Shown: piece by piece, positions 4,567-32,746 of the stretch
Layout of the letters: every line of letters starts with the position of its first letter
Numbering within the stretch: the stretch's first letter is position 1
DNA from: Leptolyngbya sp. Heron Island J
GTDB taxonomy: Bacteria; Cyanobacteriota; Cyanobacteriia; Phormidesmidales; Phormidesmidaceae
Assembly (NCBI RefSeq): GCF_000482245.1
Contig: NZ_AWNH01000026.1
Coordinates: 1-32,746, forward strand
Direction of reading: 5' to 3'
Length of the DNA stretch: 32,746 bases
The notes under the pieces: model-generated
Database searches by the model: none
Seen by the model: only the letters and a program-made list of their open reading frames with translations
What the model was told of the DNA's origin: nothing
Made by a program: the position numbers and the translations under genes

Positions 4567-6089
4567 CCACCTCCCCTTTGGGCGAGTGGTTGATGGTCAG
4601 CATAAATGAGACAACATTGCACTGGACCAATCACCCCGAATACATCGCAGTAGAACTGGGGTGAAATTATTGCAGGTGATAGTACAGGCTAACTATCAAA
4701 CGATCTTTAGTTAAAACTTATTAGTTGTCTTATATTTCTGAAACCTTTTCTAGATAAGGGCTCTATAGAAACAAGGTGATAGTACACGGATATAAAGAGA
4801 CTTGATTAGGATGCATCAGTGAGGGAATTGGGAACTACTTGTCTTACTCTGTAATCCCTCCTGTGAGATGAGTTGAGGCCAATTTATGCATTTTTTTTAG
4901 ATAAGACAGACTGTATTTTCTAAATCGACTTTTTTGTTCCCTGATGGATGCTTAACCCAAATCAATTAGCTGACATACTTCTATATAAGTATTTTGAGGG
5001 CTTCTAAATTACTAAAAGCTCTGTAGTCCTCTAGTGATACGCAGGTGATTTAATACGGAGATATGTGTCTTATATCTTTTATAGATTTAGGATTTAATGC
5101 AATCCGTAGAACTGACAAAGACTAGCTGTAAGTACTGTTCTGTAAGGGATATAGGATCTGCTGTGGATAAAAAAGTGACTGCATACGGATAAAGATATCT
5201 TAAAAACTGAGACAAACTTAAATCCTTTCATTCTGCTGCTGGTCAAAGATCAGTGACTGTATGCGGATGAAGTTGTCTCTTTTTTGTCTGAGCTATTGGA
5301 TGTGTAAAACTGCCTTGAATCCTAACTTTTACGTTAATTGGAGAGATTAAGGTGATGGTATAAGGATAAGACTGTCTTGCTAGAAAAACGTAAAAATTAG
5401 TTCGTAAGATGTGTCATGCCTTGATCTGAAAAGTAGTGAAAGGATAGGGAGGTAATTGTCTTTAAGTGAGACAGGCAGGCGGCGTTAGCTGTAAGGGTTC
5501 ATAACTTTAAATCAGAGTATTTCTGGATTGCTTGCGTTGGAAGGCTTAGACGATCTAATGCCATGGGACAGTTAGGCATTTCAACGCCAAAATCCGTTTG
5601 GGAGGTGAGGTGATATGGATAAAATCAGTCTTTGCCTTGCAATTTTTTACGTTTACCCATATTCTTTAGCCCTAGCGGCTCCAATCACTGTCTTGACTAA
5701 GACGGACAAGTGATCGAATACGGAGAATTTTAGTGATTGAGACAAGCAGTTAAGACAGCCCTGCTGATAGGTGAGTCGATACGGATACTACTGTCTTATT
5801 GAGACAAAACTTTCGAGCAATTGTGGCGCTTGTCCATATGGGTGAGCCGATACGGATTTGCTTGTCTCATCTTAAGATGCTTGATCTGCAAAGCTTTGAA
5901 CGTAAGTACTGCTTTCGGTAAGACAAAGGTGTTAGGTTTGTGAGAGTAGGACAGTGACTGCTTTATTGGAGGTAGCAGTGGTGTTTGCTGTCATCTTTGC
6001 GATTGCTGATTTGAGAGATGAGTCGATCTGTAGTTTTTGCTATTTGACTGCTGTTGAAAGCTAGAGCCATCCCGAGGATTAGCAATGCC
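4567..6089. repeat. Origin-like region with dispersed ~30-bp iterons
   Basis: This is a 1.5 kb AT-rich gap without genes. It carries about ten same-orientation copies of a composite element with rough consensus RGTGA-N4-ATACGGAT, followed 4-6 nt later by TGTCTTA. Clear copies begin at 4775, 5044, 5174, 5252, 5351, 5604, 5709, 5770 and 5841, with a degenerate copy near 5436 and partial ones near 4674 and 5952. Spacing is irregular (about 60-270 bp). The right half often continues into an inverted partner, as in TGTCTTATTGAGACA (5792-5806), a 5-bp-arm palindrome. Repeats of this kind directly upstream of a replication gene fit an iteron-type replication origin or a binding array for a regulator. 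The DnaA box and melting region were not identified with confidence. Confidence 0.65.
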
Positions 6090-27890: not shown

Positions 27891-27938
27891 CCTAAAAACT
27901 CTGTTGAAAGTTGTTGTTCACTTCGTTCACGTTTTTTC

Positions 27939-28062
27939 GTGATTTGCGGCGTTGGCGGAGGATAGCTTATTCATTCCACTACACAGGTCTTATCTGCTTG
28001 CAATCCTTTCGTAGAGGACGCTCCATGAATAAGCTCTTGTCCAATCATGGGCCGCAAATCAC
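27939..28062. repeat. Nested inverted repeats upstream of the KilA-N pair
   Basis: Two perfect inverted pairs sit one inside the other: GTGATTTGCGGC (27939-27950) with GCCGCAAATCAC (28051-28062), and AGCTTATTCAT (27964-27974) with ATGAATAAGCT (28025-28035). Asymmetric gaps of 13 and 15 nt separate the outer and inner arms, and about 50 nt form the centre. The region lies between the RecA-like ATPase gene and the KilA-N genes, so it would form part of the leader RNA or a cruciform in the DNA. Confidence 0.75.
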
Positions 28063-28162
28063 TAGCTAGGGGATTGTGAGAGAGAAAAGAGAAGAAGGGT
28101 AAGGGTATTTTTTGAGGCACAGCCCCCATAAAAAGGGCCATGGTATAGCTATTGAAGATTAT

Positions 28163-29020
28163 CTAAGCGCTTTCTCTTAAGCTCTCAATCATGGCTACCA
28201 GGCGATCACAGTCCTGAGTAGACAATTGACTCGGACTCGTACAGCCCTCAAACTCAGCCTGAATAATAGTCTTCACAGCCCCCGTATCCAGACCCACCAA
28301 CGTTCTCGCTTCCTTGATACGCTGACACTTGCTCTCGGCAGACTCCGGCATCGGAGCACCGTCTGACAGCCACGTCAGTAACGTATTCGCCAGCTCTTCC
28401 CCTGGGTTGAGGTGGTCAGTATTTGCCAGCGCTGGGCAACGGGATTTGGAAATGGTGAGTAGATGGTTTAAGTCCAGCTCTCCGGCCAGGTCGAATTCAT
28501 ACTCAATACCGCTAGCCTGGATTGGGGCTGTACCCACCTTACGCGGAGTCGCCACGGTCTTACCCTTGCGGTTGGTAGTTTCTTCCACCACCCATTCCGT
28601 CTTGGTTCGCATCGTTGCGATGATGTGGGCCGGGCTCGACAACATGGCATCGATCAGGGCACGTTCCAGCGGTCGCACACTACCCCAAGCCTGAAAGCTA
28701 TTGCCTGCACGTCCCGTTTCATTCAGCTCCCAGAACCAGGCATGGCTAAGGCTGTCGATGATAATCACGTCGTAGTCACTACGGCCAGCGGTCTTGATCA
28801 GTTCTATGTACTGACTGGGGTGATGGTTGGTTAGGGGGGCCGTATCAAAATCAAACAGGTCAGCGTACTTGCTAGCGCTGCCGTGCTCAGTGTCGATTAG
28901 GGCAATGGAGCTGCCTAGGCGTTGGCCAATTTTCAAGGCACTGTAGGTTTTGCCAGAACCGCTGGGACCTGCAATCGCAAATCTGAGACGGGATTGAATC
29001 TTCGTCGCTTTTTGAAACAT
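28163..29020 (-). CDS. RecA/RAD51-like phage-type ATPase (AAA_24)
   Basis: This 285-aa P-loop ATPase resembles phage Sak4/AAA_24 proteins, which are short RecA/RAD51-fold ATPases linked to single-strand annealing and recombination. Walker A is GPSGSGKT (residues 18-25) and Walker B is DVIIIDSLSH (84-93). The acidic LIDTEHGSA segment after the P-loop and a later IATMRTKTEW strand fit the family. ATG 29020 is preferred over the upstream GTG at 29056 because MFQKATKIQSRLRFAI is the usual start. The small 92-aa gene and a SWIM-domain gene lie just before it in the same direction. A RecA-type protein beside a SWIM protein parallels known recombination-mediator pairs. Confidence 0.8.
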   Translation of the reverse strand: MFQKATKIQSRLRFAIAGPSGSGKTYSALKIGQRLGSSIALIDTEHGSASKYADLFDFDTAPLTNHHPSQYIELIKTAGRSDYDVIIIDSLSHAWFWELNETGRAGNSFQAWGSVRPLERALIDAMLSSPAHIIATMRTKTEWVVEETTNRKGKTVATPRKVGTAPIQASGIEYEFDLAGELDLNHLLTISKSRCPALANTDHLNPGEELANTLLTWLSDGAPMPESAESKCQRIKEARTLVGLDTGAVKTIIQAEFEGCTSPSQLSTQDCDRLVAMIESLRESA

Positions 29021-29081
29021 GGTTATTCTCGATGAGGTGTAGCGAATGCGGGGCACTACTCCCGCGTCAGTGCATCAGGTG

Positions 29082-29360
29082 TTAAAACATGTCGTCGCAG
29101 CTGCAGGGGTTGGGGTTGTCATAGCCACCAATCAAGTAAGCGTGGCTGAGAATACGCCACTCTACTTTTGAGCCATCATTCACAACCTGCTGATGAATCT
29201 CGGCCAGGGCTTTCAGAATTTGACGACTACCCCACCGTCTCAGCATTTGCTCTAATTCACTTTGATCAACATCCCATTCTTCAGCCTGTTGATCTTGTTG
29301 TTTCTCTCGGCTCTCCTGTTCTCTCAAATAGGCCAGCTCTACTGGTTCACATACACGCAT
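29082..29360 (-). CDS. Unknown small protein (92 aa) between SWIM and ATPase genes
   Basis: The family was not recognised. The N-terminal half is very acidic and glutamine-rich (REKQQDQQAEEWDVDQSELE); the second half is helical with two near-terminal cysteines (NPCSCDDMF). The ATG at 29360 is directly preceded by AAGGAATCAAAACC, and this ribosome binding site lies inside a long inverted repeat that pairs with the end of the SWIM gene, so its translation may depend on translation of that gene. It is likely part of the SWIM-ATPase operon. No function is proposed. Confidence 0.6.
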   Translation of the reverse strand: MRVCEPVELAYLREQESREKQQDQQAEEWDVDQSELEQMLRRWGSRQILKALAEIHQQVVNDGSKVEWRILSHAYLIGGYDNPNPCSCDDMF

Positions 29361-29491
29361 GGTTTTGATTCCTTAAATGACTAACAAACGCCCCGCAAGA
29401 GCAGGGCAGAACTGACCTAAGCCGCTAACGGAACGGGCACAGGTCGCGATTGCTGACCGCTGTTGATGTAGTCATTTAAGGAATCAAAACC
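29361..29491 (-). promoter_or_regulatory. 23-bp inverted repeat masking a ribosome binding site, with inner terminator-like hairpin
   Basis: The sequence starting GGTTTTGATTCCTTAAATGA (29361-29383) is perfectly inverted at 29469-29491. On the minus strand, the upstream arm lies in the last codons of the SWIM gene (FDSLNDY); the downstream arm contains the AAGGA of the 92-aa gene. The loop holds a second hairpin (29390-29407, GCCCTGC and GCGGGGC) followed by a U-rich stretch. This is the layout of a translation-coupled or attenuated junction. Confidence 0.7.
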
Positions 29492-29881
29492 AAGGTGACC
29501 GAGCACCGCATAACCATGCTTGCAACAGCCCTTACCCCAGAACTTGAACTGATTTTGATAGTCTTCACAGGTACAGGTAACAGCCGCTGGCAACACTTCC
29601 ACCACATAGGAACTATGCTTTGCATCGTTATGCACGGTGTAACGCTGAGGATGACTAGCCCACACAACCACACGCAGAACCTTCGCCATCTGTCGCCGCC
29701 ACTGCACAAAGTGACGCTTAAACGCCCGCTTAGGAACAAATGTAGGCCGATAGCCAGGTATCCAGACCCAGACAACGCTCCACCATTCACGCACCTGTAG
29801 CTCAGTCACGCGACGATAGATAAGCCTGCACATGCGACGCAAAGCCGCAGCAGAGTAAAGAATATTAGAAGGGGTTACCAT
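29417..29881 (-). CDS. SWIM zinc-finger protein (154 aa)
   Basis: This protein carries a SWIM domain (CxC...CxH): Cys103 and Cys105 in VTCTCEDYQNQ, then Cys120 and His122 in GCCKHGYAVLGHLG. SWIM domains bind zinc and contact DNA or partner proteins. In eukaryotes and archaea such proteins pair with RAD51/RadA paralogues. The first 75 residues are basic and Trp-rich (REWWSVVWVW, then FKRHFVQWRRQM), and may form a further binding surface. AGAGG lies upstream of the ATG at 29881. It is the first gene of the minus-strand operon and is divergent from the XRE regulator, whose operator lies between them. Confidence 0.75.
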   Translation of the reverse strand: MVTPSNILYSAAALRRMCRLIYRRVTELQVREWWSVVWVWIPGYRPTFVPKRAFKRHFVQWRRQMAKVLRVVVWASHPQRYTVHNDAKHSSYVVEVLPAAVTCTCEDYQNQFKFWGKGCCKHGYAVLGHLGFDSLNDYINSGQQSRPVPVPLAA

Positions 29882-29961
29882 TAGAAAACCTCTTTATGGG
29901 GTTACCAAAAGGCGATTGCTAGTACTTGCCGGTTCGAACAACCGCCTTGAATTACCCTCTT

Positions 29962-30016
29962 ATCATAACCTATAACGTTATAGGTTATGATGATGATATC
30001 ACGTTATAGGTTATGA
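29962..30016. promoter_or_regulatory. 30-bp palindromic operator plus half-site
   Basis: ATCATAACCTATAAC is followed directly by its exact reverse complement (29962-29991, no spacer). The right half (ACGTTATAGGTTATGA) appears again at 30001-30016, close to the GGAGG of the XRE gene. It sits in the shared region between the SWIM operon and the XRE gene, as expected for a repressor that controls both directions. Confidence 0.75.
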
Positions 30017-30029
30017 CTTAGGAGGTGCC

Positions 30030-30275
30030 ATGAATCCAAGTCAGATGAAAGTAACCAAAACCCTAACCATAGATGCACCCCAGCTAGGACAACGGATTAA
30101 AGCCGCTAGAGAGGCCGACAACCGGTCGCTGACCAGTATTTGCAAGCTGGTCGGCATGACCACGATGAACTGGTATCGGATCGAGGCTGAACAACAATCC
30201 TTGCCTATCGAAACCCTAGAGAAAATCGAGCAGGTGCTAGGTGTAGAGTTTGGCGTGAGTTTTGAGGATGAATGA
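30030..30275 (+). CDS. XRE-family transcriptional regulator (81 aa)
   Basis: This is a short Cro/C1-type regulator: helix-turn-helix over about residues 17-65 (LGQRIKAAREADNRSLTSIC, then MTTMNWYRIEAE and IETLEKIEQVLGVEF). A strong GGAGG (30021-30025) lies 4 nt before the ATG at 30030. The gene is divergent from the SWIM-ATPase operon, and a perfect 30-bp palindrome lies between them, so it probably represses itself and that operon. It lacks a ligand or protease domain, so its inducer is unknown. Confidence 0.85.
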   Translation: MNPSQMKVTKTLTIDAPQLGQRIKAAREADNRSLTSICKLVGMTTMNWYRIEAEQQSLPIETLEKIEQVLGVEFGVSFEDE

Positions 30276-30386
30276 TGCGCTGATAAGAGAAAATGCAACA
30301 ACTAGAGCTCAAGCCCAAACCTGACATACTCAACGCCTGTCCGTGGGCACGCCCACACCGTCACGGCGTCGCCTGCGGCGTAGTTA

Positions 30387-30575
30387 GTGCTCGCTGTGCC
30401 TGCTCCGCTGCCCTATGGACTGGCTACATGGCTCAGAGAGCAAGGCTGGCAGTCTAAAGCGGTGGCTACTGACCGGGGGCAGTATGCGGCGTTGCTGGTC
30501 GGTGGGTTTGCTGTGGAGCTGCTAGGGTGGGTGCCCAGGCCGGAGAGCCATGGAAGTGAGACAGCTGGTAATTAA
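30387..30575 (+). CDS. Possible small plasmid protein (62 aa)
   Basis: The sequence LPYGLATWLREQGWQSKAVA, then RGQYAALLVGGFAVELLGWV reads as a compact helix-strand protein, but the start is a GTG without a good ribosome binding site. An in-frame extension upstream is lost in GC-rich repeat-like DNA (30345-30380). A different frame from ATG 30293 (QQLELKPKPDILNACPW) looks like the natural beginning, so the gene may have been split by a short repeat insertion. It is called as a doubtful gene. The function is unknown. Confidence 0.35.
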   Translation: MLAVPAPLPYGLATWLREQGWQSKAVATDRGQYAALLVGGFAVELLGWVPRPESHGSETAGN

Positions 30576-30810
30576 TTATCTGCCCTGGTAGCTGTTAGAC
30601 GTGGAAGAGGCCACAGCCGAGACCCGCCCGAGCACCGAGCGCCACGCAGCCACTAAGGACCGCACCAGCGTGGGGACCCGTTGTCAAGGGCGGAGCGGAT
30701 GCGGAGAGTGAAGCGTCCCTTGAGCAATGGGCGCGGTGCGGTAGCCTATTTGGCGGTGGCGTAGGAGGGGCGCAGGGCGGCCACTAGCGAGGGACGAGCG
30801 AAACTGAGAC

Positions 30811-30846
30811 GTGCCGGTGTGAATACACGGGCACAACAGCTTTTTT
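30811..30846 (+). terminator. Hairpin 1 at the end of the candidate RNA
   Basis: GTGCC and GGCAC, then a G-G mismatch, then GTGT and ACAC around GAAT. Six Ts follow after AACAGC. It may be a weak or conditional terminator. Confidence 0.5.
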
Positions 30847-30871
30847 AGTAGGGGTTAAGGCTGGTGAGGTA

Positions 30872-30903
30872 GTAGCCGGTGGTACTCCACGGGCTGCGTT
30901 TTT
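30872..30903 (+). terminator. Hairpin 2, probable final terminator
   Basis: GTAGCC and GGCTGC (one G-T pair), a G-G mismatch, then GTGG and CCAC around TACT, followed by G and five Ts. This is the better terminator of the two and has the same plan as hairpin 1. Confidence 0.7.
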
Positions 30904-30905
30904 GG

Positions 30906-31591
30906 GTGGTTGAGATCGCGAGCTAAGCACCGCATATAAAACCGGTGATACGCGTGAAGACAGCCATGAAGTTACAACTGAACCCCTTCCCCAATAAGAC
31001 TTTTGGGATTATGAAAAAATATCTCCTATGTAACATCATGTAATGCTCAACAATTCTTCATGTCGCTTAAGTGATCTTCAACAAACAACAAATCTCTCTT
31101 AAATCAGAACATGTAAGCGGCGATCCCCATGGTTTTAATAGGTAAAGTGACGAAAATTTAGAGTTTTTTTCCTATTTCTTATCAAACTTTCCTAACTCGG
31201 TAGGTTTCCGTATCAACCATTAAAAATTGGCTGTATTGTGAGGTATTGCACCCATCCAAATCAGAGTGTCATACTCTGTGTGACTAGCAGCAACCTCAAT
31301 TGATATGGCAACAAGATTGCGGTTCCTACTAGTGTTTTCTTATCTGTTTTAAGTGCTCACATAATTGTTGTTGAAGGGAGGTGGACTGAGATAAAGAACT
31401 ACGAAACTGAGCTTCTATTTTCTGATTCGGATTTTTCTGAAACCCACATAAAATTAAGGCTTTTAGAAATCTCATAAGAACAGATTACTGTTCAGTAAAT
31501 CACTTTACCTAAGTAGTTCTTTATATAGAAAAATCAAAAGGCCACCTGTGCAAGAGGTGACCTATGTTTGTGCATCAATGGAGTCGAAACC
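30906..31591. other. AT-rich gap without a clear gene
   Basis: No supported gene was found. A 25-codon frame at 30967 is too short to call. An 11-bp perfect inverted pair (TAAAGAACTAC at 31392-31402 and GTAGTTCTTTA at 31513-31523) and a near-perfect hairpin just before the next gene (AGGCCACCT/AGGTGACCT, 31539-31562) are the only structures seen. The latter could affect expression of the small membrane protein gene. Confidence 0.4.
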
Positions 31592-31799: not shown

Positions 31800-32061
31800 T
31801 AAAAAATATGAAAAGGTTAAAACCTCGATAATGAGAACATAATTACGATGAAGCAGTCACCCTAATTTCCTATCACTAGGGTGCAATTGTACTCTTAGTC
31901 ACAAGGCGAACAATGACCGTCCACAGCGTAGCGATGTGCGGTGTGGCTAGTTTAGGTGGTGGGTGGGTTGCGATCGCAGGCCTTTCACGTAGAAACGGCC
32001 TCAAAATTCATGACTAAGCTAGCATGATGCGAGAAAAAGCATCGCTCACCGATAGGAAAAC
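31800..32061. other. Short gap without a clear gene
   Basis: A 34-codon frame from ATG 31913 has no good ribosome binding site and is built on GC-rich repeat-like DNA with a HIP1 octamer near 31969. It is not called. Confidence 0.35.
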
Positions 32062-32224: not shown

Positions 32225-32746
32225 CTAACGTCGTAGCTCTAAACGGAAGTTGTGAAGCCCGCAAGCTGTTTCCATTACATCATCCACAAATCCCTCCACC
32301 CGATTACGGAATTTTTGCACCAAAATCTGACACCGTTTGATACCCCCAATATGATGTTCAACTTCCACCCGAAGACTCGATATGCCTCGATTGATCACTT
32401 TCTCGACCTCCGTTAATTCTCCATTCCGGGGCTTCTTCTTCGGTTGCACAATCGTCACTCCCTCGGGGTGATACCCTTGAAATCCCGTGTCTTGAAGTAA
32501 CGTGCTCCCTTTTGGAAACTGGTAGTCTTCTTCATCGGCTATCTTCTTGTCTTGTTTCTTTCCTTCATAGGTCCCACTCAAGTAAACCACCTTGCCTTTA
32601 CGCTCATTGATGATGACATTTGTGACACTATGAGTTTTCTTCTTGCCGCTATAGTATTCCTTCTGTTTATCCGGGTCCTTGGGACGGTTAATCCGACGTT
32701 CGGTCCCATCAATCATGAACTCTAGGCTGGGGCACTTTGATAGCAC
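32225..32746 (-). CDS. IS5-type DDE transposase, C-terminal part (runs off the window)
   Basis: The last 173 residues of a transposase are present, and the gene continues beyond the right edge. DDE residues visible here are an Asp in FMIDGTERRI, an Asp in LLQDTGFQGYHP and a Glu in RVEVEHHIGGIK. The layout (YYSGKKKTHSVTNVIIN, then RGISSLRVEVEHHIGGIKRC) is typical of IS5-family enzymes with the DDE_Tnp_4-like fold, as in the ISL2/IS1031-type groups. The frame is intact in the window. The IS end near 32180-32224 was not defined. Confidence 0.85.
   Translation of the reverse strand: MLSKCPSLEFMIDGTERRINRPKDPDKQKEYYSGKKKTHSVTNVIINERKGKVVYLSGTYEGKKQDKKIADEEDYQFPKGSTLLQDTGFQGYHPEGVTIVQPKKKPRNGELTEVEKVINRGISSLRVEVEHHIGGIKRCQILVQKFRNRVEGFVDDVMETACGLHNFRLELRR

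Follow-up and report, generated by a model that had tools for sequence, protein, structure and literature searches.

A damaged copy of the 3′ part of a probable structured RNA in a plasmid-like cyanobacterial contig, possibly one of several structured ends of plasmid transcripts

Is the GC-rich gap at 30600-30905 of this contig a new structured RNA, and of what larger unit is it a part? The window (the entire contig, 32.7 kb, of a genome of 8.06 Mb) looks plasmid-like: an integrase and a Tn3 transposase are matched by Pfam, and ParA and ParB genes are read by sequence. No tRNA was found in the window. The gap is divided as follows.

30600 to 30780, plus strand: rod domain, with which the 3′ structured domain begins (match to rod model R2 at 30637-30786, 153 bits, by construction because the window sequence is in the model; covariation in alignment A2).
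30677 to 30731, plus strand: tip helix of 14 bp with one bulge, kept save single pairs in 8 aligned copies from 3 genera.
30781 to 30782, plus strand: site of a deletion (about 95 nt when compared with loci L020 and L022) that takes away the 3′ arm of a 15-bp closing helix.
30811 to 30834, plus strand: first hairpin, hp1 (within the match to twin-hairpin model R1 at 30798-30913, by construction; alignment A1).
30872 to 30897, plus strand: second hairpin, hp2 (same R1 match, by construction; alignment A1).

The stretch folds at -137.5 kcal/mol, against -121.7 +/- 5.4 for its shuffles (z -2.94; 0 of 100 as stable). The sequence-only reading, which had proposed this fold by eye, is borne out on three points: the fold is real, the 14-bp helix is exactly as drawn, single bulge included (CCCGTTGTCAAGGG at 30677-30690 pairs with CCCTTGAGCAATGGG at 30717-30731), and the two end hairpins are built alike, each with a stem, a G-G mismatch, 4 bp and a loop of 4 nt. 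Energy alone does not tell the strand, since the complement, too, is more stable than any of 100 shuffles (z -3.64). The GC-rich sequence and a z of only -2.9, similar on both strands, would fit an ordinary intergenic stretch folding by chance, its hairpins being at most terminators. This explanation is very improbable: covariation stands against slid and shuffled controls (below), the 3′ domain of the relative L020 (423 nt) folds at -193.5 kcal/mol with z -7.6, and no intrinsic terminator (GC-rich stem followed immediately by a T-run) was found in 29800-31100, where shuffles expect 1.4 sites. By the same scan the U-runs, which had been taken to suggest a defined 3′ end, do not show one. Promoter-like sites: none in the window region scanned.

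The hairpin pair is kept in 11 aligned copies, all selected for having both; the second hairpin is lost in the copy L021:5969-6060. A 5′-truncated element at L107 (about 1500-1680) has hp1 and hp2 apparently fused into one hairpin. A reading frame through both hairpins was considered and dropped, their spacing not being kept in threes (by eye).

The first DNA search for related copies matched 6 of 143 genomes, own genome counted. The three models all contain the window's own sequence and were run on overlapping genome sets. R1 (twin hairpins) is matched at 15 places in 4 of the 8 genomes of the genus and in 5 of 290 relatives, the fifth being L047 (30 bits), a hairpin just after a gene read as ribosomal L28 that was dropped as chance or terminator; a weak R1 match at L021:5442-5551 (20.8 bits) was also dropped. 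R2 (rod) is matched in 10 of 388 genomes, four of them (G002, G093, G137, G315) by a single weak partial match of 33-43 bits that was left out. R3 (hairpin core, described below) is matched in 5 of 368 genomes, all within the genus. The exact rod pattern occurs in 9 stretches of GTDB genomes: seven belong to Leptolyngbya sp. PCC 7375, Adonisia turfae, a Leptolyngbya MAG and Nodosilinea sp. FACHB-131, the other two to unrelated bacteria. Viral contigs gave 0 matches to the rod pattern and 0 to the core pattern; a phage origin is not supported, as 17 pattern matches to gene A (below) in viral contigs include no relative. Twelve regions tested side by side span z -1.3 to -8.7 (window -3.6, with slightly different ends), six of them reaching only -1.3 to -2.6; stability is thus not uniform.

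The intact relative L020 gives the order from which the window departs: it begins with a palindrome that looks like a promoter (by eye) and runs through a GC-rich 5′ domain and gene A (96 codons) to the 3′ domain. The corresponding part of the window, with its divergent neighbours, reads as follows.

30293 to 30578, plus strand: frameshifted remnant of gene A just upstream of the rod (profile A3, two pieces).
30030 to 30275, plus strand: small helix-turn-helix gene (Pfam HTH_31), in the place of the 5′ structured domain of L020.
29417 to 29881, minus strand: gene for a SWIM-type zinc finger, divergent (Pfam E 7.6e-4, 19.4 bits against a cut-off of 19.6; cluster of 5 sources including the window).
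29082 to 29360, minus strand: gene D, divergent (cluster of 8 sources including the window).

The two pieces of the gene A remnant lie in different frames, one with internal stops. A search for the 5′ domain found nothing in the window's genome. The rod of L020 and L022 is closed by the 15-bp helix; the arm missing from the window is GTCTTGGCTGTGGCC, partner of GGCCACAGCCAAGAC in both. The window copy is a damaged remnant, a deletion derivative of the 3′ domain of a structured RNA module. As such, lacking the 5′ domain and lying beside a broken gene, it represents the module poorly, and its decay may explain a z of -2.9 rather than -7.6. Of the continuous rod first proposed the fold stands; the outermost pairs are probably not ancestral, since the closing helix has lost its 3′ arm here. 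Two repeats lie nearby. A perfect 24-bp inverted repeat (29360-29383 and 29469-29492, 85 nt apart) runs from the start of gene D into the 3′ end of the SWIM gene, and nested, operator-like palindromic repeats (ATCATAACCTATAAC/GTTATAGGTTATGAT, 29962-30016) precede the helix-turn-helix gene.

Gene A relatives are found in 13 of 388 genomes. In 6 pairs dN/dS is 0.05-0.11, which indicates purifying selection (only pairs compared in register; pairs with L092 left out), and gene A is a real protein gene. Its 96-aa product has no match in Pfam, NCBIfam, PHROG or PADLOC, nor in plasmid or phage records; plasmid records hold no match for the DNA of gene A plus 3′ domain, nor for the 5′ domain. The predicted structure (pLDDT 50) is too poor for use. 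Six distant gene A-like loci (L081-L086) have no R3 match and lie in genomes without R2 match, and in L081 and L082 gene A is followed by a terminator-like sequence, then by the next gene. Gene A thus does not need the element, and the link between them is limited to nearer relatives.

Most gene A loci read also have a conserved structured 5′ domain. This domain is found in 10 of 192 genomes, in 5 genera, the window's genome not among them. Its divergent neighbours, at the loci read, include at least one of a DprA-like gene, the SWIM gene and gene D (the DprA-like gene of L125 has a Pfam E of 0.003, below the curated cut-off). At L020:5672-6004, L122, L124-L127 and L025 it is a conserved, GC-rich, noncoding stretch with GGAAACCGACCGGAGTAAA and a GGCAGCAGACGC-like stretch. 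Four further pattern matches (L133-L136) were rejected as apparently protein-coding, unrelated sequence (by eye).

A large structured RNA acting in trans, made of 5′ and 3′ domains on its own or as an RNP, with gene A as an optional middle frame possibly encoding a partner protein, would fit this distribution: the 5′ domain is present with no gene A-like frame listed in L025 and L125 and with none seen by eye in L124 and L127, it runs into the rod in L025, it shows compensatory changes, and gene A itself is a real protein gene. The 3′ elements, however, also follow genes C, F and AAA_24, where no 5′ domain was seen; the 5′ domain of L020 is not clearly above its shuffles in stability (z -1.2); and the 3′ domains differ strongly among loci. 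The trans-acting RNA is accordingly given about one chance in four, and the reading preferred here is that of structured 3′ ends.

The window has a second, related element. Its core is CUA, a long hairpin and GAAA, and it was found between genes of the window after the core had been seen in relatives.

27930 to 28074, minus strand: second element with CUA-[long hairpin]-GAAA core (pattern and script; R3 127.5 bits, by construction).
28163 to 29056, minus strand: AAA_24/Sak4-like gene (Pfam E 1.8e-21; PHROG), whose end is just upstream of that element.
31914 to 31938, plus strand: short fragment resembling part of the L046 element (3 mismatches in 25; 0 matches in 100 shuffles).

The minus-strand element occupies the space between the AAA_24 gene and the gene that comes next; upstream of it, to about 28106, lie ACCCTTACC and a pyrimidine tract. 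Its own fold is modest (z -2.1; 8 of 200 shuffles as stable). The core script asked for CTA, a stem with no fewer than 9 pairs, G(A/G)AA, and ACCCTT or a 12-nt pyrimidine run upstream; it returned 15 distinct sequences in the loci examined, one of them on the window's minus strand. Because the script itself required pairing, independent support for the core comes from covariation and from a search by pattern with no pairing required: 9 of its 10 matches fell within the genus, and a backwards control gave 1 match in 192 genomes. The L108 match, the only one beyond the genus, lacks a paired hairpin (by eye) and was set aside. The CUA-[stem]-GAAA junction was also compared with a hammerhead, and that reading was dropped: CUGANGA is part of the hammerhead, and this part is missing, with no Rfam match. 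In loci of other families, L085 (2197-2265) and L084 (about 1875-1900), ACCCTT and CCTAG accompany pyrimidine tracts within or behind the GC-rich region; these are possibly distant forms of the core. L046 has a near-perfect long hairpin at 5774-5846 (minus strand), imperfect in the sister copies L076 and L092; one arm looks as if copied from the other by template switching.

Pairing is kept while letters change. The structures tested were derived from the same alignments and are favoured by the test. In the rod (8 sequences, 3 genera) both sides have changed in 6 of 35 pairs (reached by 7 of 500 shuffles) and 98.2% of cells are paired, against 93.9% in shuffles (reached by none of 500); the count of further pair types is reached by 452 of 500. 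In the core (10 sequences) double changes affect 11 of 22 pairs (0 of 500 shuffles), with 98.2% of cells paired against 84.1% shuffled; R3 matches are confined to one genus, so few independent events lie behind these figures. The twin hairpins (11 sequences) have double changes in 4 of 19 pairs, as high in 280 of 500 shuffles; no shuffle reaches their cells paired or their covariation score. The 5′ domain (14 sequences, one helix added by hand) has double changes in 7 of 12 pairs (33 of 500 shuffles) and a covariation score reached by no shuffle; with partners slid by +1, 5 pairs remain and the score is 0.19 instead of 0.47. Template switching at hairpins can mimic compensatory change. By these alignments the family has the helix-keeping compensatory changes of a structured noncoding RNA, weakly so for the twin hairpins alone.

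The alignments lean to the sense strand. For rod, core and twin hairpins alike, the alignment folds more stably in sense than in antisense (from the most stable sense fold down, -36.4/-23.7, -30.9/-20.6 and -28.0/-23.4). Minority pairs at Watson-Crick columns are 8 G-U and 0 A-C in the rod, 5 and 0 in the core, 10 and 6 (cells) in the twin hairpins, and 3 and 2 in the antisense rod structure. RNAalifold takes G-U but not A-C as a pair, which tilts these counts towards G-U.

At 14 of the 15 strong R1 matches a plasmid gene or remnant ends upstream on the same strand (own reading; the exception is L021:5969); at L019 and L028, and for the remnants at L023:5465 and in the window, the upstream gene was read from the sequence by eye and with profile A3. 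Genes of at least four plasmid families (A, C, F, AAA_24) have an element behind them on their own strand. Element types are swapped between genes: different types stand behind the same gene and one type behind different genes. For this position and swapping, a structured 3′ end is preferred over a single independent RNA.

Swapping of this kind would also suit a DNA element that moves or recombines (MITE, REP-like, or an attC-like folded single-strand site) and spreads behind genes, as would two inverted copies flanking a C/D/F...A core in 7 loci read (L019-L023, L045, L046), the truncated L107 copy with its apparently fused hairpins and the template-switch-like hairpin of L046. Such an element is nevertheless improbable, though less so than a chance fold. 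G-U exceeds A-C on the sense strand, the copies lie in sense behind genes, no clean insertion boundary was seen when the gene ends of 12 copies were aligned, and one transposase cluster (window 32225-32746 and L023) is common to only 2 of 16 sources.

The best explanation, with a probability of roughly 0.55, is that 30600-30905 is the damaged 3′ domain of a plasmid RNA module that forms structured 3′ ends of transcripts. The module would be carried on plasmids and islands of Leptolyngbya/Adonisia-type cyanobacteria and, where intact, would be transcribed in the sense of the preceding gene as the structured end of its transcript. This end would consist of a rod or a long hairpin, followed in many copies by the twin hairpins. 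As most gene A loci read have the 5′ domain, the mRNA of gene A would have an RNA domain on either side. Such ends would most likely protect, process or mark plasmid transcripts, and perhaps a plasmid protein reads the twin G-G-mismatch hairpins. A broader proposal is tentative, with the odds rather against it: a new class of large plasmid-borne cyanobacterial RNA, in which a small conserved protein gene lies between two structured domains, divergent from DprA-like and SWIM zinc-finger genes. Its 3′ module would have passed to the ends of further plasmid transcripts, where a plasmid protein may join it in an RNP. If true, a protein gene is enclosed by structured RNA that turns up behind several plasmid genes and whose helices persist despite letter changes. 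Leptolyngbya sp. PCC 7375 and Adonisia turfae are named hosts of related copies, in which a common structured 3′ end of plasmid mRNAs, and whatever reads it, could be looked for directly.

The sequence-only reading found that no common RNA family fits, and this agrees with Rfam 15 (GOLLD, ROOL, OLE and HEARO included), which at gathering scores gave 0 matches in the window and 0 in 10 related loci. At E <=10 the region 30400-31100 has one chance-level match (Vax2os1_2, 9.4 bits, cut-off 55), and at E <=0.5 nine loci have none. In the literature nothing was recognised as this element among the matches listed. The candidate new RNA is supported in part: covariation and a sense signal speak for a family outside Rfam, and the window copy is a decayed part of a larger module that recurs and is exchanged behind several plasmid genes. 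A hairpin in L019 (about 15853, minus strand), caught by a loose hairpin pattern, resembles domain V of group II introns.

GOLLD, ROOL and OLE are large ornate bacterial RNAs, and the element resembles them as a long structured RNA (PMC12286853). It differs in that its RNA lies around a protein gene and has related 3′ modules behind other genes; it also has no Rfam match at gathering scores and no match in viral contigs. HEARO, the omega RNA of IscB, is a structured RNA associated with a reading frame of mobile DNA, and the element is alike in this; it differs in having no Rfam match and in gene A, whose 96-aa product matches no family of Pfam, NCBIfam, PHROG or PADLOC. In integron attC sites and in REP/BIME a gene is followed by a folded element, with conserved short boxes around a variable hairpin. 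The same plan is seen here (attC compared by eye), but the element is much longer and carries a sense-strand RNA signal.
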